IMG/VR virus record: IMGVR_UViG_3300048835_001014
Span: 1-54,893 of that record
Origin: a virus
Strand: one strand, 5' to 3'
DNA length: 54,893 nucleotides
The notes under the pieces are model-generated. The model was not told the DNA's origin, did not search any database, and worked only from the letters and a program-made list of their open reading frames with translations. The translations under genes were made by a program, and so were the position numbers. Positions 11,544-54,893 of the stretch are shown one piece after another. How positions within the stretch are numbered: the stretch's first letter is position 1; each line of letters begins with the position of its first letter.

Positions 11544-11573
11544 TCGTTTCGAGCACTACCCGGATGAACCAAA

Positions 11574-21975: not shown

Positions 21976-22126
21976 TCTGTGCGACGGTTGCTCGTGGCGG
22001 CTTCTAACTCGCCACGCCACGATCCGCCCGTTCACTCTGGACCCCATCGAAGTACCACCGTCAGGCAACGAAGCCGACGGCTTACAAGCGATTGCGATTC
22101 GCATTTTGGAGGAGGACTGCAGATGA
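21893..22126 (+). CDS. Small zinc-ribbon protein (77 aa)
   Basis: Contains CLIC near residue 18 and CDGC near residue 33 (ICLICNTRPKSGNDDLCDGC), a compact zinc site. The start was set at the ATG at 21893 because GGAGG lies directly before it; an in-frame ATG at 21881 contains that ribosome site. It overlaps the methyltransferase gene by four bases, so it may be made together with it. Confidence 0.65.
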   Translation: MTSSTAMILPDKRICLICNTRPKSGNDDLCDGCSWRLLTRHATIRPFTLDPIEVPPSGNEADGLQAIAIRILEEDCR

Positions 22127-23520
22127 AGATCGAACTGAAGAACATCGCCGACATCAAACCGTATCCGAACAACCCACGCATCAACGACGATGCAGTCGAC
22201 GCCGTGGTCGCATCGATCCGCGAGTTCGGCTTCCGCCAACCAATCGTTGTGGATACGGAGCTGGTGATCGTCTGCGGGCACACTCGGTACAAGGCCGCGC
22301 TGAAGCTGGGTCTGAAGAAAGTGCCGGTTCACATCGCCAAGGATCTGACGCCCGAGCAGATCAAGGCGTATCGGATCGCAGATAACAAGACGGCCGAGTT
22401 GGCCGAGTGGAATTACGATCTGCTGCCCATCGAGTTGGGTGAACTGCAGGCCCTCAACTATGACATGACCTTGCTGGGCTTCGATCCCGATGACCTGGCG
22501 CAGCTGCTCGATCCGGGCGTTACCGAAGGACTCACCGATCCGGACGATGTCCCGGAGCCGCCCGACGAAGCGATTACCCAAGTTGGCGACCTCTGGATAC
22601 TCGGTGATCATCGTTTGCTATGTGCAGACAGCAGCAAACCGGAGGACGTGGATCGGCTGCTCGATGGGGCGGTGATCCATTTGGTGAACACCGACCCTCC
22701 GTACAATGTCCGCGTGGAGCCGCGCAGCAACAACGCCATCGCCGCAGGTCTCAGTTCGTTCTCGAATGATGCAGCGGCCAAGAAACTGAAAGCTGGCCAG
22801 GGCAACGCCTCGTTCGATGTCGCTCGTGGCAAGAAGAAGTCTGGCAACGAGCATCATCAGAAGTTCGACCTGGCTCGCCATCCTGAGAAGGCGAAGCCGA
22901 CACAGAAAAAGATGCGGGCCAAGGACCGTCCGCTGGCGAACGACTTTGTGAGCGACGAAGAGTTCGACCGATTGCTGATGGCGTGGTTCGGCAACATCGC
23001 CCGCGTGCTGCTGCCTGGGCATGGGTTCTATGTGTGGGGCGGGTACGCCAACGTCGCGAATTATCCGCCCGTGTTCAAGCGGTGCTCCATGTATTTCTCG
23101 CAGGCGGTGATCTGGCACAAGATGCACCCCGTGTTGACTCGCAAGGATTTTATGGGCGACCACGAGTGGTGCTTCTATGGCTGGCGCGAGGGCGCGGCGC
23201 ATCGTTACTTCGGTCCGAACAATGTGCCTGACGTATGGTCGATTAAGAAGGTCAACCCTCAGTCAATGATTCATTTGACCGAGAAGCCTGTCGAGTTGGC
23301 TGTGCGTGCGATTCAGTATTCGTCGCTCGCCGGTGAGAATGTTCTCGACCTCTTCGGCGGCAGTGGATCGACCTTGATTGCGTGCGAGCAGACTGGCCGC
23401 AAGGCGTTCTTAATGGAACTGGACCCACCGTATTGTGACGTGATTGTCCAGCGTTGGGAAAAGTTCACTGGCAAGAAGGCGCAGCGAGTCGAGGCAGTTG
23501 TGCAGGAGGCCAACGTGTGA
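22123..23520 (+). CDS. ParB-domain DNA methyltransferase (beta class)
   Basis: A 465-aa fusion. Residues 1-120 are a ParB/Srx-like domain (ADIKPYPNNPRIN, then VDTELVIVCGHTRYKAAL and IKAYRIADNKTAEL). Residues 155-460 are an N4-cytosine/N6-adenine methyltransferase. The catalytic motif D191-P-P-Y194 precedes the AdoMet motif F411-G-G-S-G-S, which is the beta-class order. An insert between them (about 205-275) is Lys/Ala-rich. This fusion is common in phages and usually methylates a short DNA site, protecting phage DNA from host restriction. No cognate nuclease is seen here. It begins behind GGAGGAGG and overlaps both neighbours by a few bases. Confidence 0.92.
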   Translation: MKIELKNIADIKPYPNNPRINDDAVDAVVASIREFGFRQPIVVDTELVIVCGHTRYKAALKLGLKKVPVHIAKDLTPEQIKAYRIADNKTAELAEWNYDLLPIELGELQALNYDMTLLGFDPDDLAQLLDPGVTEGLTDPDDVPEPPDEAITQVGDLWILGDHRLLCADSSKPEDVDRLLDGAVIHLVNTDPPYNVRVEPRSNNAIAAGLSSFSNDAAAKKLKAGQGNASFDVARGKKKSGNEHHQKFDLARHPEKAKPTQKKMRAKDRPLANDFVSDEEFDRLLMAWFGNIARVLLPGHGFYVWGGYANVANYPPVFKRCSMYFSQAVIWHKMHPVLTRKDFMGDHEWCFYGWREGAAHRYFGPNNVPDVWSIKKVNPQSMIHLTEKPVELAVRAIQYSSLAGENVLDLFGGSGSTLIACEQTGRKAFLMELDPPYCDVIVQRWEKFTGKKAQRVEAVVQEANV

Positions 23521-24109: not shown

Positions 24110-24339
24110 CGTTGTGATTCCTGCTCGAGCATTTTGTGATGCCAATTCCAAAGATCAATCTCGTCCTGCGTGGCTTCGCGAACGGTGCGGATCTCGATCG
24201 GCATCTCCTTGCCGAGGCGTTCGCGCACATCGGCGTAAAGAGCGTGCAACGCGGGCTGCCCGAGTCGTCTGGCCTCGCTTTCGGATTCGGCGTCCACCAA
24301 AACGTATCGGGCGAGCGTGGCGACAAGGTAGGTGGTCAT
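24106..24339 (-). CDS. Unrecognised 77-aa protein
   Basis: A short protein with an N-terminal strand (TTYLVATLARYVLVDA), then a helical charged part ending in Trp/His-rich LWNWHHKMLEQ. On the minus strand AAAGGAA precedes the ATG. It is coupled to the DUF4314 gene by a four-base overlap. A conserved upstream element lies about 40 bases before the start (24379-24402). Function not known. Confidence 0.65.
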   Translation of the reverse strand: MTTYLVATLARYVLVDAESESEARRLGQPALHALYADVRERLGKEMPIEIRTVREATQDEIDLWNWHHKMLEQESQR

Positions 24340-24378
24340 GGCGAGTTCCTTTCGTTGTTGGTTTTCAAACGCCCCACC

Positions 24379-24402
24379 TGTGACAGAGAGCCATTATTTC
24401 CG
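24379..24402 (-). promoter_or_regulatory. Shared upstream element, copy 3
   Basis: Third copy of an element found in front of three minus-strand transcription units. On the plus strand it contains GAGCCA-NN-A-N-TTCCG, the same as in the other two copies, followed on the gene side by a divergent TGTGACA. It starts 40 bases before the 77-aa gene. A promoter or operator is the natural reading. Confidence 0.5.
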
Positions 24403-24500
24403 CCAAAGATCAATAGGCGTGGAGCGCGTTGGCGGCACGTCGCGACGTTTGCGCCGTGTCGCGGCCGGCGGACGTGCTTGGCCAGCGGGCCAACCAACGA

Positions 24501-24523
24501 GAAAACGCCCCACGTGGGGGCGT
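24501..24523 (-). terminator. Rho-independent terminator candidate
   Basis: On the minus strand ACGCCCC-CACGT-GGGGCGT forms a seven-pair GC-rich stem followed by TTTTCTC. It lies 24 bases after the stop of the 176-aa gene, in the right direction to end that operon. This is the best terminator seen in the window. Confidence 0.65.
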
Positions 24524-24546
24524 GTGTGGCGACGACGTGGCGAACG

Positions 24547-25077
24547 TTACGATTGCTCGCCAGTTTCGTTGACCAAAACGGCCATGTCATGGCACCAGGC
24601 GGCCTGCTTGGCGAACCATTCAGACTGTTTGGCGTCTTCGGTCGCCTCAGCGGCCTCGCGCCAAATCGCGGCGGCCCGACGCCAGTTGCCGGCCCGCTGC
24701 GCCACTTCGGCCTCGCGGGCCAGGCGGTCAGCGGTAACGTGCTCCAGCGCGTGGTACTCTGTCATCGCGTCCTCGTAGAAGAAACGCGACGTCGGGAACA
24801 TGCGGCGGTGTCGAACGACCAGGCAGCCGCGTTCCTTCATAAAGGCGACTGCCACCGACACCTGCGTGCAGGGAACGTCGGGGGCGGCTTCCCAAAGCAC
24901 GCCGGTTGTTACGCCTTGGCCGGCGTTCTCTTCGATGAAGTGTGCGACCGCCTTGTACGACTCCTGCGAGCAGCGGTGGCTATACGTGCTGCCATCGCGT
25001 TTGGCCACAGTGCGAACCAGGTGGCCAAGTTCGACCGTGAACGATTGTCGTTCGTCAACGGGCTGCGTGCGAGTCAT
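24547..25077 (-). CDS. Unrecognised 176-aa protein
   Basis: The middle part (about residues 35-100: ESYKAVAHFIEENAGQGVTT, then TQVSVAVAFMKERGCLVVRHRR) looks like a winged-helix domain. The C-terminal half is helical with Ala/Glu/Trp-rich repeats resembling tetratricopeptide helices (RAGNWRRAAAIWREAAEA). It begins three bases after the stop of the 67-aa gene and ends before a strong terminator. Function is unknown; DNA binding is inferred from the winged-helix look. Confidence 0.65.
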   Translation of the reverse strand: MTRTQPVDERQSFTVELGHLVRTVAKRDGSTYSHRCSQESYKAVAHFIEENAGQGVTTGVLWEAAPDVPCTQVSVAVAFMKERGCLVVRHRRMFPTSRFFYEDAMTEYHALEHVTADRLAREAEVAQRAGNWRRAAAIWREAAEATEDAKQSEWFAKQAAWCHDMAVLVNETGEQS

Positions 25078-25080
25078 CGG

Positions 25081-25284
25081 TTAACCCTCCACGCGGCTGC
25101 GCAGCCGTTGAGCCGACCGGATTGTAATGCGCCGGCCAGTGCTTTCGTTCACGGCGACAATCGTCGTGCGGTAACGCCCGCCGAACGTCGAAGTCTCCTT
25201 CAGGTCCAGTACGTGAACGGTGGTCAAGCTGCCGGAGACTTTGGCGCGGTAGCGCCCGCCAACTTCGATGTCTTTCAGTTTCAT
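25081..25284 (-). CDS. Unrecognised 67-aa protein
   Basis: A small basic, strand-rich protein (KLKDIEVGGRYRAKVSGSL, then TTIVAVNESTGRRITIRSA) that may be a small barrel. AAAGGA precedes the ATG on the minus strand, as for several neighbours. It starts an operon with the 176-aa gene. Function not known. Confidence 0.6.
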   Translation of the reverse strand: MKLKDIEVGGRYRAKVSGSLTTVHVLDLKETSTFGGRYRTTIVAVNESTGRRITIRSAQRLRSRVEG

Positions 25285-25302
25285 GGTGTTGTCCTTTCGT
25301 CG

Positions 25303-25336
25303 TTGAGAAATGAAAACAGCCGCCGTTGCCGGCGGC
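25303..25336 (-). terminator. Terminator candidate after the HARE-HTH gene
   Basis: On the minus strand GCCGCCG-GCAA-CGGCGGC forms a perfect seven-pair stem 20 bases after the HARE-HTH stop, followed by TGTTTTCATTTC. It would end transcription before the 67-aa gene. Confidence 0.55.
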
Positions 25337-25356
25337 CGTTGCGAGTGAGGGTTGAT

Positions 25357-25731
25357 CTAGCCGTTGGCGGCGAACTTGCCGCGCTCGGTCTTTTTGAAGC
25401 GGGCGTCGTTTCCCTTCGTATTGATCTCCCGCAGGATGGCGCTGTACAGCGTCGCGTGCGGCGTCTTGCCTCCGGGGCTGGTCCAAAGGTTCTTGGCGGC
25501 CATCGCTTCGACCAGTTCCTTCGCGTTCATCGCCTGCTTCGTGTCGGTCAGCACCTTGGCCGCCGCGTCGATGGCGCTCAGCTTCTTGTCCTTCGCCTCG
25601 CCGTTGCCGCTGGCGGCCTTGGCCTTCGGCGTGGTCTTCTTCTTCGGCGCGGCCTTCTTGGTGGCGGCCTTCGCGCCCGAGGCCTTCTTCGCGGTCGTTG
25701 CCTTCTTCGTCGTGGTCTTCTTGGTTGCCAT
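25357..25731 (-). CDS. HARE-HTH protein with histone H1-like tail
   Basis: A 124-aa protein. Residues 1-50 are almost only Lys, Ala, Thr and Gly, like the tails of histone H1 or bacterial HU-type extensions. Residues 52-120 match the HB1/ASXL/restriction-endonuclease HTH (HARE-HTH) domain: SAIDAAAKVLTDTKQAMNAK, ELVEAMAAKNLW, and HATLYSAILREINTKG before RFKKTERGKF. The start is the ATG at 25729-25731; upstream residues in the frame are not typical. It probably binds DNA and could shape phage or host chromatin. A hairpin terminator follows. Confidence 0.8.
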   Translation of the reverse strand: MATKKTTTKKATTAKKASGAKAATKKAAPKKKTTPKAKAASGNGEAKDKKLSAIDAAAKVLTDTKQAMNAKELVEAMAAKNLWTSPGGKTPHATLYSAILREINTKGNDARFKKTERGKFAANG

Positions 25732-25827
25732 GATCTGGCTCCTCGTGAAAAACGGTCGCGATGGTTGGGCTGCCATCATCAGGCGGCGGGAACCACCCGC
25801 CACGACGCCCGCGTGGGCGTTTCGGCT

Positions 25828-26091
25828 TTAGTGGGCGGCGTCCCAGGCCCGCTTGGTCCCGTAGCAAAGCTGCTGGCCTTCGCAGATGTAGACCACCTGG
25901 TCGGCTTCAACGTCTCCGTCGTCGTTCGGGTCGTCATCGTCGGCCTCGTCGTTGATCTCTTGGCCCGACGCCAATCCGAAGATGTCGTTCTCGAAGGGCC
26001 AATTGCTCTGCGTCATCAGTCGCACTTCGGCGTCGCCGCCGAGCTCGTCGCGATAGTCTTCCAGGCGTTCGATCAATTCGTCGATGGTCAT
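25828..26091 (-). CDS. Unrecognised acidic 87-aa protein
   Basis: The N-terminus TIDELIERLEDYRDELGGDA is a short helical motif found in many small phage proteins; a strand (AEVRLMTQ) and a highly acidic stretch follow (ten Asp/Glu/Asn residues around 50-60). GAAAGGAG precedes the ATG. It could be a DNA mimic because of its acidity, but this is speculation. Confidence 0.65.
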   Translation of the reverse strand: MTIDELIERLEDYRDELGGDAEVRLMTQSNWPFENDIFGLASGQEINDEADDDDPNDDGDVEADQVVYICEGQQLCYGTKRAWDAAH

Positions 26092-26118
26092 GGTTGGGGC
26101 TCCTTTCGTGGTGGGTGG

Positions 26119-26346
26119 TTACTCTTCGGTGCCGTCGAGAAAGGCGACGATCGAAGAGAGGCGGTTGTTGACTTCGTTGACGCTGCCGACGTCGGCCCAG
26201 TTGATCGGGTGTTCGTCGTTGCCGGGCGCGGGCAGGTCGAACAGCAGCTCGCGGATGCGTTCGACCAGGTCCTGGGCGACCAGGTGGGCGTTCTCGTAGG
26301 CGGCCTCGGCAGTCAGGTTCGGTTTCTTCTTTCGGTTGGCGTTCAT
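26119..26346 (-). CDS. Unrecognised 75-aa helical protein
   Basis: A short basic start (MNANRKKKP) is followed by two or three helices (AAYENAHLVAQDLVERIREL and NRLSSIVAFL). No cysteine or membrane segment. It begins 44 bases after one copy of the shared upstream element. Its first codons (MNAN) are the same as in the amidoligase gene, perhaps because the leader regions share an origin. Confidence 0.6.
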   Translation of the reverse strand: MNANRKKKPNLTAEAAYENAHLVAQDLVERIRELLFDLPAPGNDEHPINWADVGSVNEVNNRLSSIVAFLDGTEE

Positions 26347-26625
26347 CGTTGTTCTCCGTTTGGTTGGCGTTTCGGAATCGCGTTACGACAGTCACACATG
26401 AGCCATCAATTCCGAAACACAGCAAGCGCTGTGGGGGAACATTCCGCCGGAATTCAGCAGCTTTTTCCTGCTCTCAAACGGGGTAAGGTTGGCCCGGGTT
26501 GGCCCCCGTTGGCCGCGTGTCGCAACATGTCGCGGAAGTGGTCGCGTGAATCGCGACCCGCCAACGAAATACGCCACGTGGCCGACTGTGCGCCCGCGTG
26601 GCGTTTGTTGGCGAAGGGCTCCGCG
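26347..26625. other. Non-coding gap with shared element and inverted repeat
   Basis: This 279-base gap separates the amidoligase gene from the 75-aa gene on the minus strand. It holds one shared upstream element (26390-26414), a GCAGCTTTTT word also found in the gap after 27498, and a hairpin of ACGCCACG (26571-26578) with CGTGGCGT (26597-26604), 22 bases after the amidoligase stop. The hairpin may be a weak terminator. I see no gene here. Confidence 0.4.
26390..26414 (-). promoter_or_regulatory. Shared upstream element, copy 1
   Basis: On the plus strand AGTCACACATGAGCCA is followed by TCAATTCCG. Copy 2 at 27561 has the same AGTCACA-N-ATGAGCCA and TTCCG parts, and copy 3 at 24379 keeps GAGCCA-NN-A-N-TTCCG. 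This copy lies 44 bases upstream of the 75-aa gene. Read on the minus strand it starts CGGAA, which resembles the -35 box of some alternative sigma factors, and the phage encodes its own sigma factor. Confidence 0.55.
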
Positions 26626-27498
26626 TTAAGCGGCGCTACGGCTGGTCTCGTCGTACTTGCGGGCCATTTCGATCAGCTTCGTCTTGATCGCCTTGAGGTC
26701 GGGCGTAGCGTTCTCGCCCGTGAGTTGCCCGTAGACCTTGTCGCGAAGCGCTCCCTTGTACCAGCCTTTGGTCCATCCCAGCCGGTAGAAGAGGCGGTTG
26801 AGTTCCGTCTCGCCTTCGCCCGCGCCCGGTCGATCCCAGCAGCTTCGCGTCCCTTCGCGCTTCGTGTACTCCCAATCCGATCGGCGTTTCGTGTTGAGCG
26901 CGAGTTCTACCAATCCCAGGCACATCATCAGATAGCCGGCGACCTTGGTCTTGTTTGTGGTCCCTGCGAAGCAACGAAACTCGATCCGATTCTTCCCACG
27001 GGCCAGGTGCGTGAGGTTCAAGAGGTGATAGCGGTCCGCTTCGCAGTGTGCTTTAGCGCTGTCGTGGTTGCCGTAGTTCTTGATCTTCTTGCTGTAGCGG
27101 TTCTGTTCGCGGCGTCGCGTTCCCGTGCTGGCGTACAAGGCTCGTTCGTGGTTGCCGACGAGCGAAATCAATCGAGCCAAGGCGGCCGCGTCGCCGCGCC
27201 ACTCGACAGTCAGGTGGCAGCCACAACTAGGATTCACTTTCGCATTGCGGGCGTTGATCGCGTCGAGCGATTCTTCGACCTGTTTCAGGCCTTCGTACCC
27301 GCGGAGTTTCGGGCTGACGAATTCGCATCCCTTCCGTCCTGGCACCAACGTCTGAATCGAGCTATCGCGTTCCGCCTTCCAGCCTTCCGGCAACCAGGGA
27401 ACCTGGTATCCGCCGTGGTAGGGGCCAATTGGCGTCGTGTCGTTCGCCTTCAAAGTCGTTTCGAATTCCAGACCGAAAAGAATATCGTTGGCGTTCAT
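26626..27498 (-). CDS. Amidoligase family enzyme
   Basis: A 290-aa protein of the amidoligase (COOH-NH2 ligase-like) family, enzymes related to glutamine synthetase and glutamate-cysteine ligase. The family pattern FGLEFET at residue 8, then EFVSPKLRG, NPSCGCHLTVEW and NRIEFRCFAGTTNKTKV is visible. Family members in mobile elements are predicted to join amino acids or peptides, possibly in cell-wall or protein modification. The start is the ATG at 27496-27498 preceded by AAAGGA. A shared upstream element lies 63 bases before it. It is the first gene of the minus-strand accessory block. Confidence 0.82.
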   Translation of the reverse strand: MNANDILFGLEFETTLKANDTTPIGPYHGGYQVPWLPEGWKAERDSSIQTLVPGRKGCEFVSPKLRGYEGLKQVEESLDAINARNAKVNPSCGCHLTVEWRGDAAALARLISLVGNHERALYASTGTRRREQNRYSKKIKNYGNHDSAKAHCEADRYHLLNLTHLARGKNRIEFRCFAGTTNKTKVAGYLMMCLGLVELALNTKRRSDWEYTKREGTRSCWDRPGAGEGETELNRLFYRLGWTKGWYKGALRDKVYGQLTGENATPDLKAIKTKLIEMARKYDETSRSAA

Positions 27499-27775
27499 CG
27501 TGCGGTTGTCCTTTCTGTGCGTTGGTTGGTGTTGTCTGGCGGGGCGTCGTCCGCTTCGCGAGTCACAAATGAGCCAGGAGTTCCGCCGAGCCTCAAGCCA
27601 GGAAAAGCAGCTTTTTGCCGAGATTTCGCATGTTTTTCCGGGCGGCCACGTGTGGCCCCGTTCGGCCCCACGTCGCGTGGCAAAACCGGGCCAACAAGGA
27701 GGCAAACTTCGCCCAAAGCCGCCACAGTTCGCGCCGTGTTTCGCCAGCCGCCAAACGGGCGGAAGGGGGCCGTGG
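27499..27775. other. Divergent gap between the accessory block and packaging genes
   Basis: This 277-base region sits between genes pointing away from each other, so it should hold promoters for both. It contains the shared upstream element for the amidoligase gene, a GCAGCTTTTT word, T-rich runs, and the palindrome GGCCAC-GT-GTGGCC (27644-27657). No clear plus-strand promoter was found for the late genes. No gene is visible. Confidence 0.4.
27561..27585 (-). promoter_or_regulatory. Shared upstream element, copy 2
   Basis: AGTCACAAATGAGCCA followed by GGAGTTCCG on the plus strand, 63 bases upstream of the amidoligase start. It matches copy 1 at 26390 at all but a few positions and copy 3 in the GAGCCA-NN-A-N-TTCCG core. 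Confidence 0.55.
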
Positions 27776-27985
27776 ATGAGCGCTGACAACGCCCTGGTGG
27801 ACCCAAATCGGCTCACGCCAGAGCAAGCCGCCAAACTGCTGTCGGCCGCCGCCAAGGTGCGCGTCCCCGTCGAACAGATCGCGTCGGACCTCGAGGCCGG
27901 CGCGCCGCGGAACCCAGACAGCACGCTGAACCTTGTGCATTACTGCGCTTGGCTACTAAGGGAGATGGCGCGACGTGGCGAGTGA
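27776..27985 (+). CDS. Small protein resembling the terminase N-terminus
   Basis: A 69-aa protein directly before the large terminase, with an 11-base overlap. Its L-x-P-x5-LL opening and C-terminal HYCAWLL parallel the L-x-P-x5-LLN and RYVAWLIE parts in the first 60 residues of the terminase. Both may be the same small DNA-binding fold. The location fits a small terminase subunit, but it is short for that role. The upstream frame is open but not protein-like; the start ATG follows GGAAGGGGG. Confidence 0.6.
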   Translation: MSADNALVDPNRLTPEQAAKLLSAAAKVRVPVEQIASDLEAGAPRNPDSTLNLVHYCAWLLREMARRGE

Positions 27986-45145: not shown

Positions 45146-47023
45146 ATGGCCAAAAAGGTAACCGCCGGTCAGCCGTTTCGGCCCAGTGCCCGCGAGTGGA
45201 ACACGCTCGTGGACGCAGCGCGCGCGCTGGAGACCGGCGAGTTGGACCAGGCGTTCGACGTCGATCTGCCCGAGTTGTCTCAGACAAAGATCCTGGTCAA
45301 GAACGAGACGGGCTATCCGCTGCCGCTGTTCTCGATCCTCGCGCTGGGCGAACCGTGGAAGACGCCCGACGAAGATCTACCCCAATTCAAGCGACAGATC
45401 GTGTTCCGAGGCGTCACGCCTCAGAAGTACGAATGCCACGAGCCAAAACATCCTTACATCATCCTGCTGGAGCCGCTGCAGCCCAACGGCATCGGCGAAG
45501 CGGTCCTGGCCGGCGTGGCGATCACGAAGGTCAACGTCGTCCGCGAGATTGATCCGTTCGCCGAGGTCGTCGAAGGGAACACGACGTCGCTACGAAGCGC
45601 TCCTCATGGCCGCACTCGAATTCTCTGGAAACCGCCCGGCACCGGCATGAAGTGGTGCGTGGTGCGGATCAGCGATCGCCCGCGCTTTGCGGTGTTCGAG
45701 CTGCCGACCACCAAGTGGAAGACGGGCGACGCGTCGGCCTATCCGCCCGAACCGGATGGCTGGGCCAAGATGCCCGGCTGCAAACCGGTTTTTTACTTTT
45801 CGGACGGTTACACTTATGTTGCGGACGGCAACGAGGATCCGGAAACGATCTGGCACCAGGTCGGCTACCCGCCCAAAGAACGCGACGACGTCATCGCGCT
45901 GCATACGAGCTCGGGACTCTGGCCGGCGAAGTTTGGCGACAAGGATTGGGCCTGGTGTTTTTGGAACGACCACGAATGCCGCTGGCAGATCCTGGCGTCG
46001 TATGAAGACCATTGGCGGTTTCAATTACTTGAGCCGCTCCCGCGCTGCGGTTCGGCATTGGCCAAGCTCGTCCTGTACGACGGTGTCTACTGTCCGGTCG
46101 ACCTGACGTTCACCGTCGTCGATTCGATCGGCATTCTGTGGCCTGAAGAATCGGACAACGGCAGCAGCGGCGGACCCGTTGTGATCCCGGCGGGCACGTA
46201 CGGCTTCGCCAAGCGGTTCGCCGACAGCGATGCGTGGGAAGTCCTCGCGCTGGGCGAAGGGTGCTGTCCGAAGTCGAGTAGCAGTAGCGGGTCGTCGTCC
46301 TCCCCATCGTCGCCATCATCGTCCCCGTCTTCGTCGCCTTCGTCATCGCCGAGTAGTAAGCCGTCCTCGCCCAGCAGCAAACCGTCGTCTCCTAGTAGCC
46401 CGTCTCCTCCGAGCAGCCGACCGCCGTCGTCCGTTCCGAGCAGCAAACCATCTTCGGCTCCCAGCAGTCAACCGTCGTCCGCTCCCAGCAGCGAACCATC
46501 TGAAATACCACCGTCGCCGTCATCAACACCTTCCGAACAACCGTCGTCGCAACCATCCGAGTCGCCCGCATCGAAGTCGCCCAAGTCAAAGGCCTCCTCG
46601 ATGCAGTCGGAAAAGAGCACGGCCATCGTGCCGGCCAGCTGGTCGCCGACCGGTTATACCGCGCTCTTCATCCACGAAATGCCCGAGGTGCGGTTCGATG
46701 ACGTCGTGACCGCGACCGTGACAGACGACGAAACGCTGATCGCTATTGATCCCCGGTTCTTGGAAGTGTGTGAGCCGGGAACCGTGGAGGTCTGCGGCTG
46801 CGTGCCGGACCTGCCGATTCCGGTAGGTGCCGTTGTCGAAGATGACCAAGTACGTATCCGAACCTCACGCCTCAAGTCTCAGGCATCAAGCCTCCGTGTG
46901 GTGATCCGTCTCACCGGCATCCGCAAGGGATTCGGTTCGCAGCGATTCCCCAACCGCACCGAGGAACAGTTCCTCGCCAACGAAGCATTCATCCGTAGCG
47001 CGTATCCGGGAGGCAACGAATGA
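45146..47023 (+). CDS. Tail or fibre protein with Ser/Pro-rich middle (625 aa)
   Basis: Residues 1-370 are folded and globular, with Trp/Tyr-rich strands (PTTKWKTGDASAYPPEPDGW; FSDGYTYVADGNEDPETIW). Residues about 377-490 are nearly all Ser and Pro with Lys and Gln (SSSPSSSPSSSPSSKPSSPS style), clearly disordered or extended. Residues 500-625 are again folded. The Ser/Pro stretch matches the composition of the next gene, which it overlaps by four bases. Such linkers often carry sugars. The likely role is a baseplate or fibre adaptor. Confidence 0.7.
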   Translation: MAKKVTAGQPFRPSAREWNTLVDAARALETGELDQAFDVDLPELSQTKILVKNETGYPLPLFSILALGEPWKTPDEDLPQFKRQIVFRGVTPQKYECHEPKHPYIILLEPLQPNGIGEAVLAGVAITKVNVVREIDPFAEVVEGNTTSLRSAPHGRTRILWKPPGTGMKWCVVRISDRPRFAVFELPTTKWKTGDASAYPPEPDGWAKMPGCKPVFYFSDGYTYVADGNEDPETIWHQVGYPPKERDDVIALHTSSGLWPAKFGDKDWAWCFWNDHECRWQILASYEDHWRFQLLEPLPRCGSALAKLVLYDGVYCPVDLTFTVVDSIGILWPEESDNGSSGGPVVIPAGTYGFAKRFADSDAWEVLALGEGCCPKSSSSSGSSSSPSSPSSSPSSSPSSSPSSKPSSPSSKPSSPSSPSPPSSRPPSSVPSSKPSSAPSSQPSSAPSSEPSEIPPSPSSTPSEQPSSQPSESPASKSPKSKASSMQSEKSTAIVPASWSPTGYTALFIHEMPEVRFDDVVTATVTDDETLIAIDPRFLEVCEPGTVEVCGCVPDLPIPVGAVVEDDQVRIRTSRLKSQASSLRVVIRLTGIRKGFGSQRFPNRTEEQFLANEAFIRSAYPGGNE

Positions 47024-49608
47024 GTTCCTCATCGGTCATCTACGGATCGAGCAAATCGTTTTCGAGCGTCAGCGAATCCTCACGATCATCGCCCAGTTCG
47101 TCGAGCGATTCGTCCGAGAGCAGCCGTCCCAGTTCGCTGCTCAGCTCTTCAAAGAGCAGTGCAAGTAGCAGCCGACGCAGTTCCGGTTCGAGCGGGTCGG
47201 CGTCGTCGGATAGGTCTTCGAGCAGCCGACCGAGTTCCAGCGGCTCGTCGGGAAGCTCGTCAAAGAGCTCGCCCAGCAGTTCCGGCCGCAGCAGCTCCGA
47301 CAGTAGCTCTCGCCGCAGTTCTTCCGTTTCGTCCGACAGCAAATCGTCGGAGTCGAAGAGTTCGCTTTCGACGCCGTCCGCGCGTTCTTCTTCGCCATCG
47401 TTGAAGTCGCAAAGCAGCAGCGCGTCGGCTCCATCGTCTCCGTCGTCGGAAAGCCGATCCTCGAAGAGTGACGCGTCGTCGCTTTCCAGCGGTTCGCCGT
47501 CGAAGTCTTCGCTTGCGAGTCTATCTGGATCGTCGATCACCGCATCGAGTGATTCGCAATCTTCTGGAGAGCGATCCTCCGATGCATCGTCGAGCCTGGA
47601 CAGTCCGTCTTCGCAGTCGAGTGGATCGTCCGCGCCGAGCGATGCTTCCAGCAAGGCCTCTGCAGATTCGTCGTCGTTTGTTTCGCCGGTTTCATCCACA
47701 CCGTCCAGTCATCCATCAAGCGATGCCAGCGAAGCGTCGTCGCCCAGCCTCAAGTCATCGCTGGCATCGGACAAGTCGTCGCTTGCGAGCCCAGAATCGC
47801 CGGGTCTGAGCAGTGTAGGCAGCAGTCAGAGTCCTGCCAGCGAAAGCGTTTCCCTGACGAGCTCGATCGAATCGGGCAGCGGCCAAAGCAGCACCGTCCA
47901 ATCTGGCAGTTCCGCAATCTCGCCAAGCGCACCATCACCGTTATCGCCGTCGTCAGTGCCCAGCTCGGCGAGTGCGGACAGTGCCTCGGCAACATCATCG
48001 TTCGGCAAGAGTAGCGGACCGTCTGTGGAATCGAGCCCAACGACAAGCTCGGTATCGCTGCAATCAGGCAGTCCGCCTTCGAGCGAGGCCCGGCCATCCA
48101 GCGGAAGCGTCCAGTCACCTTCGCCACCATCGGCCAGCTCGGGCGGCTCGACCAGTCCAGTGGCTTCAAGCGTGCCGAGCCAAGCCGCTCCGTCCTCAAC
48201 CGGACCAAGCAGCGGTTCGCCTGCATCCAGCAGCGGCGATTCGCCGTCCAGCACAAGTCCAACCTCGGGTTCTCCGCCGTCGCCAGGTTCTGGCGCTTCG
48301 GGAAGCCCGGCGGGCTCGTCGGAAACGAGTCCCTTGTTATCGAGTGCACCAAGCGTCGCGCGGTCCAGCACGAGTCCAACATCTGGTTCGCAAGCATCCG
48401 GTTCACCGACGTCAGAAAGTCCCGGAGAGTCGGCGAGTGCCACTGCAAGTTCGCAACCTTCCGCGCCATCGACCAGCGGCGCTCCGTCCGCGCCGAGCAC
48501 GTCACCGACTTCGACACCCGGAAGCAGCCCGACATCGCCGCCGTCCGGTCAGGCCAGTTCTGGTTCGACACCGCCGGCGTCATCGACCACAGGCCCATCG
48601 AGTGTGACCGTACCGTCGTTCTCACCCATGTCGCTGCCATCAGCCGCGTCGACGAGCCCAACGTCGGACGCGCCGAGCGGCACCAGCACCACTCAAAGCT
48701 CCGTTGACGTTCCGCCGCTGCCCAGCGGATCGCCGCCGCCGTTTCCGAGCTTCTCGCCTGGATCGGTCGGTTCGCCAGGATCCGGTGCTTCCGGCGCGTC
48801 GCCATCGCCGACCAGCCTCGGTCCGTCGCCTGTGCCATCGCCGACGTCCCAGCCCAGCACACCAGCTCCGTCCAGCGGCGCACCGGTCAGTCCGGGTCCG
48901 TCGCCAGGTTCCTTCGTGCCCGGCAGCAGCGGCAACGGATCGTTGGGTCCACCCAGCGAGACGCAGTCGGAGATTTCGCAGACACCTCCTCCCGGTCCCA
49001 GCGGCACCAGCACGCCGCCACCGCCGACAAGCGCTTCACCGGCCAGCACGCCAAGCACTGTCGGACCGTCGAGTGACGCACCGCCGCAGCCCAGTCCCTT
49101 TCCCGGCAGCAGTGATCCAGGGCCCGTCTCGGGAACGCCGAGCGAAACGACGTCCACGACGTCGCAGACGCCTCCACCGCCACCGCCTGCTTCGAGCGGA
49201 ACGCCGCCGCCGCCTCCACCACCGCCAACGAGCGAGTCGCCGCAGCCAAGTGCGCCGAGCACGCCTAGTGTTCCCGGACCGGCGTCGAGCGACGTGCCGC
49301 CACCGCCTCCTCCGGGCAGCAGTAATCCCGGACCTGGTTCGCCTGAGCCACCTCCCACCAGCGAAACGCCGTCGGAAACGCCACCGCCACCGGACCCGAG
49401 TGACACGAGCAATCCGCCGCCACCACCGCCTCCACCTCCGCCCCCACCGGCGAGTATGGAATCGCCCATCCCGTTCTCGGAAGAGCCGTTCTCCGAAACA
49501 CCGCTTTCCGATGAACCCTATTCCGAACCGCCGATTTCCGACCAGCCAATTTCCGAACTGCCGCCTCCGCCCGAACCTCCACTCTCGGAAGAGAGCATCG
49601 TGCCATGA
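47020..49608 (+). CDS. Giant Ser-rich low-complexity protein, probable tail fibre
   Basis: An 862-aa protein made almost only of Ser, Pro, Thr, Ala and Gly. The first 320 residues are Ser-dominated with scattered Asp/Glu/Lys. The middle is Ser/Pro/Gly/Ala (PSSGSPASSSGDSPSSTSPT and similar). The last quarter is Pro-rich with poly-Pro runs up to 12. Residues 818-847 are six pentads P-[FLYI]-S-[DE]-x. There is no signal peptide or membrane segment. It overlaps the genes before and after by four bases. It may form a long rod or stalk. The shadow frames of this gene on the other strand are Gly- or Asp-rich and were dismissed. Confidence 0.7.
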   Translation: MSSSSVIYGSSKSFSSVSESSRSSPSSSSDSSESSRPSSLLSSSKSSASSSRRSSGSSGSASSDRSSSSRPSSSGSSGSSSKSSPSSSGRSSSDSSSRRSSSVSSDSKSSESKSSLSTPSARSSSPSLKSQSSSASAPSSPSSESRSSKSDASSLSSGSPSKSSLASLSGSSITASSDSQSSGERSSDASSSLDSPSSQSSGSSAPSDASSKASADSSSFVSPVSSTPSSHPSSDASEASSPSLKSSLASDKSSLASPESPGLSSVGSSQSPASESVSLTSSIESGSGQSSTVQSGSSAISPSAPSPLSPSSVPSSASADSASATSSFGKSSGPSVESSPTTSSVSLQSGSPPSSEARPSSGSVQSPSPPSASSGGSTSPVASSVPSQAAPSSTGPSSGSPASSSGDSPSSTSPTSGSPPSPGSGASGSPAGSSETSPLLSSAPSVARSSTSPTSGSQASGSPTSESPGESASATASSQPSAPSTSGAPSAPSTSPTSTPGSSPTSPPSGQASSGSTPPASSTTGPSSVTVPSFSPMSLPSAASTSPTSDAPSGTSTTQSSVDVPPLPSGSPPPFPSFSPGSVGSPGSGASGASPSPTSLGPSPVPSPTSQPSTPAPSSGAPVSPGPSPGSFVPGSSGNGSLGPPSETQSEISQTPPPGPSGTSTPPPPTSASPASTPSTVGPSSDAPPQPSPFPGSSDPGPVSGTPSETTSTTSQTPPPPPPASSGTPPPPPPPPTSESPQPSAPSTPSVPGPASSDVPPPPPPGSSNPGPGSPEPPPTSETPSETPPPPDPSDTSNPPPPPPPPPPPPASMESPIPFSEEPFSETPLSDEPYSEPPISDQPISELPPPPEPPLSEESIVP
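49471..49560 (+). repeat. Six 15-bp tandem repeats in the fibre gene
   Basis: Six 15-base units begin at 49471, 49486, 49501, 49516, 49531 and 49546, each of form CC(N)(N)TTCCGA-type and coding for P-[FLYI]-S-[DE]-x. Examples are CCGTTCTCGGAAGAG and CCGATTTCCGACCAG. They are near the end of the Ser-rich gene and may vary in number between phages. Confidence 0.85.
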
Positions 49609-49913
49609 ACGCAGTCCATGACAACCAGACAGAACGAGTCGGTGCCGGTACGCACCTGCATCGGTTGCTGGCCGCGTGGGGATTCACGCCGACCGAGGGC
49701 TGTTTCTGCGAAGATCGCGTGGCCGAGATGGACCGCCAGGGACCGCAGTGGTGCGGTGAGAACATCGACTTGATTGTCGAGTGGCTCGTCGAGGAGGCTC
49801 GCGACTGCCAGGCGCTCGGCGTGCTCGCTCGTATCGTTCCTGGTCCGACTCGCGTTGCCGTACGCCGGCTCGTGGTTCATGCCATCGTGTTGGCCGAAGG
49901 AGGAAGCGAATGA
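49605..49913 (+). CDS. Unrecognised 102-aa protein
   Basis: A protein with three cysteines near the centre (CFCEDRV; QWCGENIDLIVEWLVEEARD) and helical ends. It overlaps the fibre gene stop (ATGA) and the glycosyltransferase start (ATGA). Its middle helix resembles a small coupling or chaperone protein, for which there is no proof. I do not recognise a family. Its constant coupling implies joint synthesis with fibre and transferase. Confidence 0.6.
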   Translation: MNAVHDNQTERVGAGTHLHRLLAAWGFTPTEGCFCEDRVAEMDRQGPQWCGENIDLIVEWLVEEARDCQALGVLARIVPGPTRVAVRRLVVHAIVLAEGGSE

Positions 49914-50851
49914 AAAAGCTGATCCTCCGCGCCAACTTGTGTCCAGGCGACATCCTCACGATGACCGCCGCCGTGGAATCGCTGCACCTGACGTATCCGG
50001 GCGAGTACCAGACCGACGTTCGCACACCGGCCCTTGAAATCTGGCAGCACAACCCACGGATTTTCAAGGTGGACGACGACGATCCCGAAGCCCAGAAGAT
50101 CGACCTGCACTATCCGTCCATCAACCGCAGCAACCAGGAGCATATTCCGTTTCTCGGCGGCTACACCGACGACCTGGCCCGCAAGATCGAGCGGCCGCTG
50201 ACGCTGAAGGTCAATCGCCCCTGCCTGTACCTGAGCGACGATGAGAAGACGTGGATCGATCAGGTGCGCCACCATTTCACCGATGGCCGGAAGATTCCGT
50301 TCTGGCTCGTGAACGCCGGCATCAAAAGCGACTACACCGCCAAAGCCTGGCCCGTTGAGTACTACCAGGAAATCGTGTCGCGCACGCTTGGCCGCATTCA
50401 GTGGCTGCAGGTCGGCGCGAAGGAGCACGACCATCCTTCGCTCAACGGTGCGATCAACCTGGTCGGCAAGACCGACCATCGACAGTTGATCCGCCTGGCT
50501 TGGCACGCCCAGGGTGGGCTCGGCCCCGTCACGTACCTGCAGCATTTGTGCGCGGCGTGGGAGAAGCCATACATCTGCCTGTTAGGCGGCCGCGAGCCGG
50601 TCACGTGGACGCAGTATCCGCTCCAGCACACTCTGCACACGATCGGCATGTTTTCGTGTTGTCGGACGTCGGCGTGCTGGAAGTCTCGCATCGTTCCCGC
50701 TGGCGACGCCTCGACGAAAGACCAGAGTCTGTGCCAATGGCCGGTGCTTGGTCTCGCGCGGCCGGTCGCCCGCTGCATGGGCGCCATTCGTCCCGATGAA
50801 GTCATCGCTCTGCTTGAAAGGATTCTCGTATGCCAGCAACTCGCACATTGA
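49910..50851 (+). CDS. Glycosyltransferase family 9-like (heptosyltransferase) protein
   Basis: A 313-aa protein that resembles ADP-heptose-type glycosyltransferases. The N-terminus KKLILRANLCPGDILTMTAA is the family's first domain strand and turn. Later RIQWLQVGAKEHDHPSLNGA, then NLVGKTDHRQLIRL, and GGLGPVTYLQHLCAAW followed by PYICLLGGREP form the nucleotide-sugar binding half. The C-terminal half is Cys/Trp-rich. The start was set at ATG 49910 because it follows AAGGAGGAAG. The acceptor is unknown; the coupling to the Ser-rich fibre gene suggests that protein. Confidence 0.75.
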   Translation: MKKLILRANLCPGDILTMTAAVESLHLTYPGEYQTDVRTPALEIWQHNPRIFKVDDDDPEAQKIDLHYPSINRSNQEHIPFLGGYTDDLARKIERPLTLKVNRPCLYLSDDEKTWIDQVRHHFTDGRKIPFWLVNAGIKSDYTAKAWPVEYYQEIVSRTLGRIQWLQVGAKEHDHPSLNGAINLVGKTDHRQLIRLAWHAQGGLGPVTYLQHLCAAWEKPYICLLGGREPVTWTQYPLQHTLHTIGMFSCCRTSACWKSRIVPAGDASTKDQSLCQWPVLGLARPVARCMGAIRPDEVIALLERILVCQQLAH

Positions 50852-51618
50852 CCCCGCTGCCTCCCGGCGGCGTCTGCCACGCTCGCTCCGCACGTCGCGA
50901 CCGGCTGCAGCGACTGATGAAGGAACTGAAAGAGCCGGCTCGTATTCACCGCAAGCAGTGGGAATACGCGCTCGTGGTCGAGGCCCTGGAGGCGGCCGAC
51001 CTGGTTGGTCCCGGCAAACGCGGGCTTGGCTTTGGCGTGGGCGTCGAGCCGCTCGTCGCCTACTTCGCGTCGCGCGGCTGCGAGATCGTGGCCACGGACC
51101 TCGAGCACGGCTGGTACGAGAACTCGTTCGCCCGACTCAACGAGCGTCGGATCTGTCCGCCCGATCGTTTCGCCAGGCTAGTGACGACGCGCCACGTCGA
51201 CATGAACTGGATTCCGCAAGACTTGACCGACTTCGACTTCTGTTGGTCGTGCTGCTCGATGGACCATCTCGGCTCGATCCGCCTGGGAAAACGGTTCGTG
51301 TACCACTCGCTGCGCTGCCTGAAGCCCGGTGGCGTGGAGATTCATTCCGGCGAGTTCAATCTGCAGTCGCATTGGCACACGATCGACTACGAAGGCACGG
51401 TGTTGTGGACCCGCTACGACGTCGACGAAACGCTCGCCTACCTGCGCGAGCGCGGGCACGACGCGCCGTTCGATTGGACAACGGGCGACGAGCCAGAAGA
51501 CCAGATCGCCAACCAGGGGGACGGCGTCCACGTCCGCCTGTTTGTCGGAGAACTGTTAGCCACGTCGTTTGGACTTGTGATACGGAAAGGAGAGATGCCG
51601 GATGGAACTGACGAATGA
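50830..51618 (+). CDS. Class I SAM-dependent methyltransferase
   Basis: A 262-aa methyltransferase. The AdoMet motif is KRGLGFGVGVEPL, with the acid Asp90 at the end of the second strand (IVATDLEH). A DFCWSCCSMDHLGSI segment and the KPGGVEIHSGEF turn complete the fold. The first 40 residues are basic. It overlaps the transferase before by 22 bases and the next by 17. The substrate is unknown, but its place inside the transferase cluster suggests a sugar methyltransferase. Confidence 0.8.
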   Translation: MPATRTLTPLPPGGVCHARSARRDRLQRLMKELKEPARIHRKQWEYALVVEALEAADLVGPGKRGLGFGVGVEPLVAYFASRGCEIVATDLEHGWYENSFARLNERRICPPDRFARLVTTRHVDMNWIPQDLTDFDFCWSCCSMDHLGSIRLGKRFVYHSLRCLKPGGVEIHSGEFNLQSHWHTIDYEGTVLWTRYDVDETLAYLRERGHDAPFDWTTGDEPEDQIANQGDGVHVRLFVGELLATSFGLVIRKGEMPDGTDE

Positions 51619-52768
51619 AACCGCTGCCTATCTTGTGAATGAAGCGATCCCGACGCTGCGCGACGAGCCCGAAGAACCCAAGGAAGGCCGCGGCATCGTG
51701 ATGTCGGCCGGCGGCGTGAAGTACCAGATCAACGCCTGGGTCTGCATCCGCATGCTGCGGCGACTCGGTTGCGAGCTGCCGATTCAGTGTTGGTTCCTGG
51801 GTGATACCGAACGTAATCGAGCCTGGGAACAGGTGGTCGCGCCGTATGGTGTCGAGTGCGTCGACGCTTACGAGGTCCGTATACGTCACCCACACGCGCG
51901 GTTGCACGGCTGGGAATCCAAGCCCTACGTGATCCAGCATTCACCGTTCGCAGAGGTCCTGTTCCTCGACGCCGACAACGTGCCGGTCCGCGACCCGACG
52001 TTCTTGTTCGAGACACCTGAATACCGCGAGACGGGAACGATCTTCTGGCCCGACTTCGGACGGCTGGGACCCGAGCGACTAGCGTGGCGAGTGTTCGGCG
52101 AGATTCCGTTTCGCGATGAACCGGAGGTCGAGAGCGGACAGATCGTGGTCGACAAACGCCGTTGCTGGAAGGCACTGGAGCTCTGTCACTGGTACATGCA
52201 GAACTCCAACAACTTCTATTTCTTCCACGTACATGGCGACAAGGAAGTGTTCCACCTGGCGTGGCGGAAGCTCGAACAACCGTACGCCATGCCGCAGCGT
52301 GGCATCGACGCGTTGCCTGGCGTCATGTGCCAGCACGACTTTGAGGGAAACCGGATCTTCCAGCATCGCAACATGCGGAAATGGTCGTTTTACGAGAACC
52401 CGCAGACGAACGGCTTTCTCTACGAGAACGAATGCCGCGAGTACATCAATGAACTGAAACACGTCTGGTCGCCCGCGGCCGATTTGCCGGCAACGCCCGA
52501 AGACACGTCCGCCATCTCGCGGCTCGACGGGAAGATGTACGAATACCACCGCGTCGGCTACGACCACCGCACGGTTTGCCTACGGCGCGACGGCATCTTC
52601 GGGGAGGGCGCGGCCTCGTGCGAGTACTACTGGACGATCCGCGACGGCGTGATGATCGTCGCCGGCGAAAACGGCAACCGCACGATGGAACTGCGACCCG
52701 CCAAACACGGAATCTGGGAAGGACAATGGCTCAACCACGAGAAGATGCCGGTACTGCTCGTCCCCTGA
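51602..52768 (+). CDS. Glycosyltransferase with DxD motif and C-terminal module
   Basis: A 388-aa nucleotide-sugar transferase. The metal-binding motif is Asp123-Ala-Asp125 in FLDADNVPVRD. The N-terminal part has VKYQINAWVCIRMLRRLGCE and the later VESGQIVVDKRRCW segment, patterns of mannosyltransferase-like and family 8-type folds. Residues about 327-388 are a separate module (LRRDGIFGEGAA, then YYW and GIWEGQWLNH) that returns in the last gene of the window. The likely role is adding sugars to a phage protein or lipid. It overlaps both neighbours. Confidence 0.8.
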   Translation: MELTNETAAYLVNEAIPTLRDEPEEPKEGRGIVMSAGGVKYQINAWVCIRMLRRLGCELPIQCWFLGDTERNRAWEQVVAPYGVECVDAYEVRIRHPHARLHGWESKPYVIQHSPFAEVLFLDADNVPVRDPTFLFETPEYRETGTIFWPDFGRLGPERLAWRVFGEIPFRDEPEVESGQIVVDKRRCWKALELCHWYMQNSNNFYFFHVHGDKEVFHLAWRKLEQPYAMPQRGIDALPGVMCQHDFEGNRIFQHRNMRKWSFYENPQTNGFLYENECREYINELKHVWSPAADLPATPEDTSAISRLDGKMYEYHRVGYDHRTVCLRRDGIFGEGAASCEYYWTIRDGVMIVAGENGNRTMELRPAKHGIWEGQWLNHEKMPVLLVP

Positions 52769-53484
52769 CGCTGCGAGTGCTGGGCGATATCGATCACTTT
52801 CGGGGATCGACGCTGGCGTCGATGCTGGATTGCATCGGCGGTAGCGTGAGCCATCACGGCCGCGTTGGCATTGCGTGGCTCCCGCGTGGCGGCAGATCAC
52901 CGGACGAGCCTTGCATCAATCAAGCTGCGGAAGCAGACAAGCACCGTTTGGCTGATCACTTCTTTCGCGTCTTCCGTTATCCGCTCGGCGTCGATCCACG
53001 TCACTACGCCGGCGAGATCGTGCAGAAGTCGCTGCGAAACGGTGCTCACGACGGCCAAGTCGTGCGTGGCCCCATCCCAAACCCCATCCCGGACGGCGTC
53101 TACCAGCACCTGATCGCCAACCAAACCAGCGGCAACCGAATCATCGACCTTCGCGTTCCGTTCATCGGCGGCATGTCACCGGTCTGTTGGATCAAGTGTC
53201 GGCCGATGGAGAAGCGATTTGCCGCCCAATCCGAGTGGGCGCGGCTTGCTACGCCCGCGGAACTGTTCAGCCAAGGCGAGCAACCGTTGCTCACGCGCTT
53301 CTGCGAGGAGGTTCATCTCGACTACGGCGAACTGGACGTACTGCGCGACGTGCAGAGCGACTCCATTTACGTCGTCGACGTCAACCCGACGCCGTACCCG
53401 CTGACCATAGGCATCGAGCCCAGCGAATGGACGAAAGCCATCCGCGTGATGGCGAAGCGATTCAAGGAGGCGTTTCTGTCGTGA
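52726..53484 (+). CDS. ATP-grasp-like protein (252 aa)
   Basis: The C-terminal half has the signature of ATP-grasp enzymes: DYGELDVLRDVQSDSIYVVD followed by VNPTPYP, the usual metal-binding and nucleotide end. The middle includes IIDLRVPFIGGMSPVCWIK, another grasp-like strand. ATP-grasp proteins join carboxylates to amines or thiols and occur in capsule and peptide modification clusters. The ATG was set at 52726, 43 bases inside the previous gene; later starts are possible. It overlaps the next gene by four bases (GTGA). Confidence 0.6.
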   Translation: MAQPREDAGTARPLTLRVLGDIDHFRGSTLASMLDCIGGSVSHHGRVGIAWLPRGGRSPDEPCINQAAEADKHRLADHFFRVFRYPLGVDPRHYAGEIVQKSLRNGAHDGQVVRGPIPNPIPDGVYQHLIANQTSGNRIIDLRVPFIGGMSPVCWIKCRPMEKRFAAQSEWARLATPAELFSQGEQPLLTRFCEEVHLDYGELDVLRDVQSDSIYVVDVNPTPYPLTIGIEPSEWTKAIRVMAKRFKEAFLS

Positions 53485-54893
53485 GCATGCTCGCTGTCAC
53501 CATCGGAGTCGGTCGTTGCGCCTCGCTGGCTATTGAGGCAGCCTATCGCTGCCGCCATTTCACCGGCCTGGACGTCGTGATACTGAACGAGGCCCACCAG
53601 CACCGGTACCGCGTCGCCGAAGCGCACCATTTGAAGTTTCACCTCTTCGACATCCTGCCCGACGTAGATCGACTGTTGTACTTCGACGCTGACCTGTGGT
53701 TCGTCGCGGCTTGGAATCCAACGGAGTTCCCCAGCCTCTCGGCTGTTCGCGACAACGAACTTTACGAAGGGATGCGCCGTGAGTGTGAGCGATTTGGCTT
53801 GGCCTCCGACCGCTACTTCAACTCGGGACTGCTGATCATCGACCGGAAACACGCAGAAGTGCTTCGGGCCGCCGAACGACTGCGACAGCGACACGGTCCA
53901 TTGTCGATCTGGCGAGACCAGACGTGGCTGAACCTGGCGACGAAGGAATGCGGCACGCCGGTTCACTTGATCCACCGCGCGTACAACACGTTTCCGATCC
54001 CGCACGACGGCGAGGCACCGGTCGTCGGGGCGCATGCTGCCGGGACCGACGCGACGTTCGCTGATTTGATGAGAGCGGTCTCGCAACTTCGCCGGCGCGG
54101 CTTGCCCACCACCCTGCAGGACGCCGGCAAGCTTTTCCAGTACACCGTTCATGGTGTCGGGTCCCATCGGCTTCTGCTCCGGGCGGACGGAACGATCGGA
54201 GTCGGTGCCGCTCAGCTCGAACGCTACTGGTACGTCGCCGGCGATCGACTCGTCCTCTGCTCCTGGACCGAAGACGCCGTTCACCTTCGTGAGCAGCGAC
54301 CCGGTGTGTGGCAGGGAAAGTGGCTCGGCTTCGGCAAGCATGACGTAACACTGGAACTCCATCGGGCTCAGTCGATCGTCGATGCCCTGCGGTCGCGCGA
54401 CGGCGAGTGGCTTGTCGGAGCGGAAGTCGGAGTCTGGCACGGCGAGACATCCGAATACCTGCTGCGCTCGCTTCCCCACCTGCACCTCCACATGGTCGAC
54501 CGCTGGCGAAAGTATCCGCCCAGCGCGACACCGAGCTCGCTAAAGCAGGCCAGCCAGGCGACCTTCGACACAGCAAGCCGGCAGGCAATTCAGGCGACGG
54601 TTTTCGCAGCGGATCGAAGAACAATCCACCGCCAGGCCTCGTTGCAGGCTGCTGTGTCGTTTGAAAACGGTTCCTTGGACTTCGTCGTGATCGACGCCGA
54701 GCACGGCTACGAGTCGGTCGTCGCCGACATCACGGCCTGGCTGCCGAAACTGAAGCCGAACGGAATCCTGTTCGGTCACGATTACGGGCATCCTCGGTTC
54801 CCTGGGGTGAAACGGGCGTTCGATGAACTATTGCCCGGCCCACTGACACTGGCTCCGGACTATCTGGTGTTTCAATGTAAGGAGGCCGCATGA
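53481..54893 (+). CDS. Glycosyltransferase-methyltransferase fusion
   Basis: A 470-aa fusion. Residues 1-225 are a family 8-type glycosyltransferase with D69-A-D71 in LLYFDADLWF and the RYFNSGLLIIDRKHA and RDQTWLNLA segments. Residues 233-292 are the short module also found in the previous transferase (LRADGTIGVGAA, RYW, GVWQGKWLGF). Residues 311-470 are a class I methyltransferase (VGAEVGVWHGETSEYLL, Asp340 in MVDRW, IDAEHGYESV and KPNGILFGHDYG). AAGGAGG precedes the GTG start. Its stop is the last codon of the window. It would couple sugar transfer with methylation of the sugar. Confidence 0.85.
   Translation: MSMLAVTIGVGRCASLAIEAAYRCRHFTGLDVVILNEAHQHRYRVAEAHHLKFHLFDILPDVDRLLYFDADLWFVAAWNPTEFPSLSAVRDNELYEGMRRECERFGLASDRYFNSGLLIIDRKHAEVLRAAERLRQRHGPLSIWRDQTWLNLATKECGTPVHLIHRAYNTFPIPHDGEAPVVGAHAAGTDATFADLMRAVSQLRRRGLPTTLQDAGKLFQYTVHGVGSHRLLLRADGTIGVGAAQLERYWYVAGDRLVLCSWTEDAVHLREQRPGVWQGKWLGFGKHDVTLELHRAQSIVDALRSRDGEWLVGAEVGVWHGETSEYLLRSLPHLHLHMVDRWRKYPPSATPSSLKQASQATFDTASRQAIQATVFAADRRTIHRQASLQAAVSFENGSLDFVVIDAEHGYESVVADITAWLPKLKPNGILFGHDYGHPRFPGVKRAFDELLPGPLTLAPDYLVFQCKEAA

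Follow-up and report, generated by a model that had tools for sequence, protein, structure and literature searches.

The contig IMGVR_UViG_3300048835_001014, a whole IMG/VR record of 54,893 bases referred to here as the window, comes from a temperate tailed phage, and its right-hand part encodes two serine-rich proteins (P625 and P862) followed directly by a cassette of putative glycosyltransferases and methyltransferases. We consider it probable, at roughly 70%, that this is a late phage operon for a mucin-like, O-glycosylated virion fiber with an interchangeable glycan cassette. Judging from sequence comparisons, there is strong support for a phage serine-rich virion protein with glycosyltransferases of its own, because the linkage is conserved in both directions, the enzymes turn over around the serine-rich partner, and selection acts on serine. 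A preliminary description of this DNA had interpreted the region as a glycosylated, methylated fiber, and these three lines of evidence uphold the pairing of acceptor and enzymes within that interpretation. Altogether, dozens of related viruses combine a serine-rich fiber of this kind with differing enzyme sets, which suggests that these phages make a sugar coat of their own and diversify it.

Serine-rich proteins and selection on serine

P625 (positions 45146-47023, on the plus strand like all genes described from the tape measure onward) has four parts. The anchor domain (residues 1-171; 45146..45658) recurs in Planctomycetota genomes. It is followed by a middle domain (45659..46273), recognized from alignments and a predicted structure, that ends with a conserved GEGCC directly before the Ser/Pro-rich stretch (residues ∼377-495; 46274..46630). 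This stretch of about 120 amino acids was defined by composition, with up to 26 serines and 15 prolines per 50 residues, and the same position is also serine-rich in relatives. The C-terminal folded part (46631..47023) is kept in the related loci L002 and L011, and partly in L015. In the L015 protein (9977-11749) the stretch at the matching position is rich in Ser-Glu and Ser-Asp (SESESQSDSESE), recalling Sdr repeat regions, and a Stealth-like protein is encoded among the genes that follow.

P862 (47020..49608) is Ser/Pro-rich throughout, with 334 serines (39%) and 173 prolines (20%) among its 862 residues; it has no Pfam match, and its composition and conservation make it the presumed glycan acceptor. 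Both proteins are present as first described, including the length of the second. P862 is a real gene: its serine codon preference (TCG over AGC) resembles that of other window genes, its start lies inside a 4-bp overlap with P625 (ATGA), and its frame is preserved in L002 and L011. The long serine runs mix five or six serine codons and thus are not microsatellites. A chance origin of serine-rich open reading frames (ORFs) was considered and rejected, as in ∼0.9 Mb of genome loci they are confined to the fiber region, in 12 of 60 loci. A simple codon model also gives antisense ORFs good scores, yet the forward frame is favored by the gene overlaps and by serine conservation set against codon identity.

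P862 evolves far faster than its neighbors. Between the window and L002 it shows 78% identity with 112 gap columns, compared with 88 to 99% protein identity for neighboring genes. In ungapped blocks taken from the nucleotide alignment of the two, 222 of 231 serines are kept (96%), although their codons match in only 57% of cases; of the other non-proline residues, 126 of 222 (57%) are kept. P862 is therefore under selection for serine itself, not for general hydrophilic residues. Its length also varies, with 862 residues in the window, 894 in a longer form, and ∼555 to 590 in L011. Sequence and length are free and serine is kept, as one would expect if the protein were an acceptor that depends on its hydroxyl groups. 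An additional argument from switches between TCN and AGY codons was dropped, since 13 such switches in a protein-guided alignment fell to one in nucleotide-anchored blocks. In L127 (3917-4802), a nearly pure poly-serine protein, with up to 56 serines per 60 residues and all six serine codons mixed, sits upstream of a distant GT9 homolog.

Linkage to glycosyltransferases and turnover of the cassette

Serine-rich proteins and glycosyltransferases occur together whichever is taken as the starting point. In the forward test, made in Planctomycetota genomes, all eight anchors that have a Ser/Thr-rich tail and downstream sequence (L060, L063, L068, L074, L078, L080, L081, and L113) have glycosyltransferases behind them, as do 5 of the 26 dereplicated loci in which the anchor carries another C-terminus (Fisher p = 7e-5, or 1.5e-4 without L113, kinship uncorrected). 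In the reverse test, a serine-rich ORF lies upstream at all eight viral loci with a GT9 homolog (gap of 12-1199 bp) and at 29 of 42 loci with a GT1-like enzyme, 26 of the 29 at a gap of 4-29 bp. Of 31 GT1 homologs with at least 53% identity, 28 have the upstream serine-rich ORF, and the remaining three have shorter serine runs (19-21 per 60). The early account had asked whether the same transferases occur without a serine-rich partner in related genomes; close homologs keep the partner, and nearly all GT1 homologs at or below ∼52% identity lack one. In addition, serine-rich proteins without the anchor domain (L122-L124, L127, L155, and L167) still adjoin the same transferases, so the transferases and the serine stretch go together across different carriers.

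Across related phages, the serine-rich proteins are accompanied by at least six enzyme sets. These include GT1-radical SAM-methyltransferase-GT2; GT1-pyruvyl transferase-GT2; GT9-PF11051-GT8 with sulfotransferase-like or methyltransferase genes; GT25; GT2-type enzymes in L081 and L113; and paired GT32-like PF04488 DxD enzymes with a 4-bp overlap. Non-homologous enzymes around a constant type of acceptor point to functional pairing, more than shared descent. The PF04488 pair belongs to a second clade, in which the anchor protein is not serine-rich and a separate Ser/Gly-rich protein lies ∼2 kb further on. One C-terminal form of this protein has the pair, or its first member, directly behind it (12 loci). 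Four second-clade tail-region proteins (L182:12122-13868, L184:12122-13838, L103:5819-7403, and L174:8196-9750) also contain a Hint/intein-like stretch (CVLAGTPVxLxxGxxxPIExLxPGDRxxALD), with two DxD (PF04488) transferases behind them in a 4-bp overlap.

Several observations weigh against the operon being a glycosylated-fiber system. Serine-poor anchors are followed by transferases in L066, L071, and L085 (GT9), L083 (GT1), and L073 (GT2). On the anchor tree the serine-rich state changes four times, with one supported independent pair; these transitions are too few to decide, and by this tree-corrected test alone shared descent may account for the pairing. The other C-terminal form of the second-clade protein (often GTGTFSI or GTYSI) has no recognized transferase behind it, and about 11 of 23 loci of that clade with a separate serine-rich protein have none adjacent (L084, L101, L108, L181, L195, L207, L216, L217, L228, L235, and L247). 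Serine-richness thus does not require an adjacent transferase, and these proteins may carry no modification or rely on enzymes encoded elsewhere. Lastly, the predicted structure of the window's GT9-like enzyme has a predicted local distance difference test (pLDDT) score of 50, too poor to use.

Cassette enzymes, virion placement, and proposed mechanism

Behind P862 lies a 102-amino-acid, cysteine-containing protein (49605..49913) that the preliminary description missed. It is conserved before the GT9 gene in L002 and L011, with a similar small gene in L006; it carries the motif CFCED...MDRQGPQWC and is possibly an adaptor. Next come a GT9-like (heptosyltransferase-like) transferase of 313 amino acids (49910..50851; PF01075, E = 7e-7), a class I S-adenosylmethionine (SAM)-dependent methyltransferase of the Methyltransf_11 family (50830..51618; PF08241, E = 2.5e-5), and a putative glycosyltransferase of the Mannosyl_trans3 family with the DxD motif FLDADN (51602..52768; PF11051, E = 9e-33). 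The cassette continues with a protein without family (52777..53484) and a GT8-like glycosyltransferase (YFDADLW) fused to Methyltransf_24 (53481..54893; PF01501, E = 4e-6; PF13578, E = 1.8e-19), where the contig ends within the cassette. Pfam confirms the transferases and methyltransferases that had been read from the sequence, and the overlapping starts are present as described. The ATP-grasp label given to the protein at 52777-53484 found no support in Pfam (E ≤ 0.1), NCBIfam, or PDB, and the likeness is one of motif only. From P625 through the GT8 fusion, successive genes are spaced by −4, −4, −4, −22, −17, +8, and −4 bp, and between 44200 and 54893 there are no sigma-70-like promoter matches, with terminator-like sites not above their shuffled frequency.

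The GT9-like enzyme is the natural candidate for priming in the window cassette, its best structural relatives being transferases of ADP-heptose; other cassettes presumably use other primers. Its best PDB profile match, to WaaF (1psw), is weak (E = 0.013), and TibC is not among the profile matches. The gene after the cassette in L002 encodes an HldE adenylyltransferase domain (TIGR02199), and in L011, a Gemmatales metagenome-assembled genome (MAG), such a domain follows the cassette along with an HldE kinase piece. These HldE-like genes near the cassette in relatives make ADP-heptose a plausible donor.

How might such a fiber be made? We propose that an exchangeable N-terminal anchor fixes P625, which bears one serine-rich stretch, to the virion, and that P862 is a long, probably disordered polypeptide of almost pure Ser/Pro/Thr/Gly. 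Soluble transferases would attach sugars to the serines while the proteins are still in the cytoplasm, either ahead of virion assembly or as it proceeds: the GT9-type enzyme would prime, the PF11051 and GT8 enzymes would extend the glycan, and the methyltransferases would decorate it. No membrane segment was predicted in any of 84 cassette-region proteins. The acceptor should therefore lie in the cytosol, as suits virion proteins that are put together within the host cell. The glycan would serve adsorption or shielding. Sugar attachment, the acceptor residues, and the identity of the sugar are all things that we infer. The acceptor principle, a serine-rich tail on an anchor, stays as the enzyme cassette is exchanged, and so the phages would differ in glycan.

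The P625 anchor (residues 1-171) is present in 37 of 392 sampled Planctomycetota genomes, where it is joined to unrelated C-termini that are tail-fiber-like, collagen-like, or serine-rich. Fusion to such different C-termini supports a virion role and a modular fiber. In L066, L071, and L085 the C-terminus is tail-fiber-like, with a different GT9 enzyme two genes on and no serine-rich protein. A P625 homolog without the anchor occurs in L011 (9998-11377), which keeps P862 and the cassette and is either a prophage remnant or an assembly join. The tail label given to the region at first is partly sustained: gene order after the tape measure makes a tail location likely for P625, but the predicted fold of residues 1-377 (pLDDT 77) has weak matches to phage head-fiber bases or decoration-size capsid chains (phi29 gp8.5, T1, FCWL1, and BB1; E = 0.06-0.5), as well as weak matches to viral fiber-like proteins. 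From this model, a head position may be an alternative.

In the rest of the window, DUF2924 and serine integrase genes at the left end are followed by replication genes, the terminase, the portal, a head/protease gene, and the tape measure (40613..44260; PF10145, E = 1e-45, and many PHROG tape-measure models), which marks the tail module. Between the tape measure and P625 is a conserved 289-amino-acid protein (44273..45142), distal-tail-like by position, with relatives in at least 573 viral stretches and no match in Pfam or PHROG. Elsewhere we noted a DUF5131 protein and, encoded behind it, one with a GMT-like winged helix-turn-helix domain, possibly a two-gene cargo or defense module beside the integrase (4259-6355); a phage-encoded extracytoplasmic function (ECF)-type sigma factor (10318-10902; PF07638, PF04542); an N6/N4 DNA methyltransferase fused to a ParB-N domain (21979-23520); and a 1,216-amino-acid protein with no match in Pfam or PHROGs (24136-27786).

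Alternative explanations and comparison with known systems

A cassette at the end of a prophage could instead be an agent of lysogenic conversion, which would modify the host surface glycan and block superinfection, leaving the serine-rich neighbor a coincidence. The cassette of L060 does sit between the fiber and a resolvase gene, close to the edge of the prophage, the window has its serine integrase at the opposite end, and the lipopolysaccharide-type families GT9 and GT25 occur among the cassettes. However, there is no GtrA/B, flippase, or polymerase among the first 25 listed of 36 cassette families, and the lack of membrane segments tells against this role. The enzymes are also tied to the serine-rich gene by 4-bp overlaps or 4-29 bp gaps in a region without a sigma-70-like promoter, and serine-poor anchors at the same position are mostly without cassettes. 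We therefore regard conversion as unlikely.

Slightly less likely still is that the serine-rich stretches are unmodified flexible linkers or spacers, with the transferases acting on another virion protein or a small molecule. SSG and SSP repeats are linker-like, and some of the second-clade proteins have no transferase nearby. However, the selection on serine itself argues for acceptors, 862 residues would be long for a linker, and the transferase genes track the serine-rich gene even where the anchor differs. Modification of the phage's own DNA into hypermodified bases is very improbable. Phage glycosyltransferases often modify DNA (Pyle et al. 2024, in the summary given by PMC12619734), and the cassettes include radical SAM enzymes and methyltransferases, but the cassettes adjoin the fiber gene rather than replication genes. 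No thymidylate-synthase/hydroxymethylase homolog was found in the window by a search whose positive controls were detected, though the contig may be incomplete; a Tet_JBP search was uninformative, its control being silent.

If the glycosylated-fiber reading is correct, many uncultured planctomycete phages share a dedicated mucin-like acceptor that moves together with its enzymes, and the enzyme sets vary around an acceptor principle that does not. Such phages would present a virion surface of a new type, supply O-glycosyltransferases that modify simple serine repeats in proteins, and offer a clear way to ask whether a phage ligand can be a sugar. The system is open to experiment, because sequenced Planctomycetota genomes contain close prophage relatives. 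A less likely possibility is that, in a large lineage of planctomycete phages, the adsorption determinant is the sugar on a constant serine-rich fiber, its structure set by the exchangeable cassette; host range or evasion would then shift by swapping transferase sets and not receptor-binding domains.

Serine-rich repeat (SRR) glycoproteins of Gram-positive bacteria (GspB/Fap1/SraP type) are very long serine-rich acceptors encoded beside their own glycosyltransferases. The analogy, drawn already in the preliminary description, holds for the mechanism, since the window also has a long serine-rich protein adjoining glycosyltransferases, but not for the defining features. P862 has no LPXTG motif, in contrast to the LPXTG-anchored adhesins, and no accessory Sec component (SecA2/SecY2) was seen in the window cassette or among the first 25 listed of 36 families. 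SRR systems use other transferase families and export their product, whereas the window product would join the virion. The serotype-converting gtr cassettes of temperate phages also place glycosyltransferases near a prophage end, with a membrane flippase (GtrA) and membrane-bound transferases; the planctomycete phage cassettes have no predicted membrane proteins, no GtrA/GtrB was seen in them, and, unlike gtr cassettes, they are coupled to fiber genes.

To our knowledge, few documented cases exist of phages that encode the glycosylation of proteins. Among 50,697 cultured phage records there was no tblastn match for the P625, GT1, or GT9 proteins, and in line with the novelty first supposed, we found nothing in open-licence papers on serine-rich planctomycete phage proteins with transferases. 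The nearest phage precedents are the mycobacteriophages Che8 and Rita, which like the window phage encode glycosyltransferases and modify their own structural proteins (Freeman et al. 2023, as cited in PMC11256854 and PMC12619734), and the glycans reportedly protect the particles against anti-phage responses. According to those citing papers, the sugars are attached at the C-termini of the capsid and tail-tube subunits, whereas the window has a dedicated, very long serine-rich protein and, compared by description, a larger and exchanged enzyme set.

For the enzymes, the closest parallel is with the bacterial autotransporter heptosyltransferases (BAHTs) TibC and AAH, cytoplasmic GT-B enzymes with a WaaC-related fold that heptosylate many serines (PMC4358343). 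The window enzyme shares a GT9/WaaC-like catalytic domain, four conserved cysteines near the C-terminus, and HldE-like genes nearby in relatives. Its cysteine spacing in the alignment (x5-x18-x13) differs from the BAHT iron finger (C-x2-C-x15-C-x11-C), and it opens with an apparent catalytic N-lobe where BAHTs have an N-terminal beta-barrel of ∼97 residues. Phage virion glycosylation is known; what these sequences would add is a dedicated serine-rich acceptor with exchangeable enzyme cassettes.

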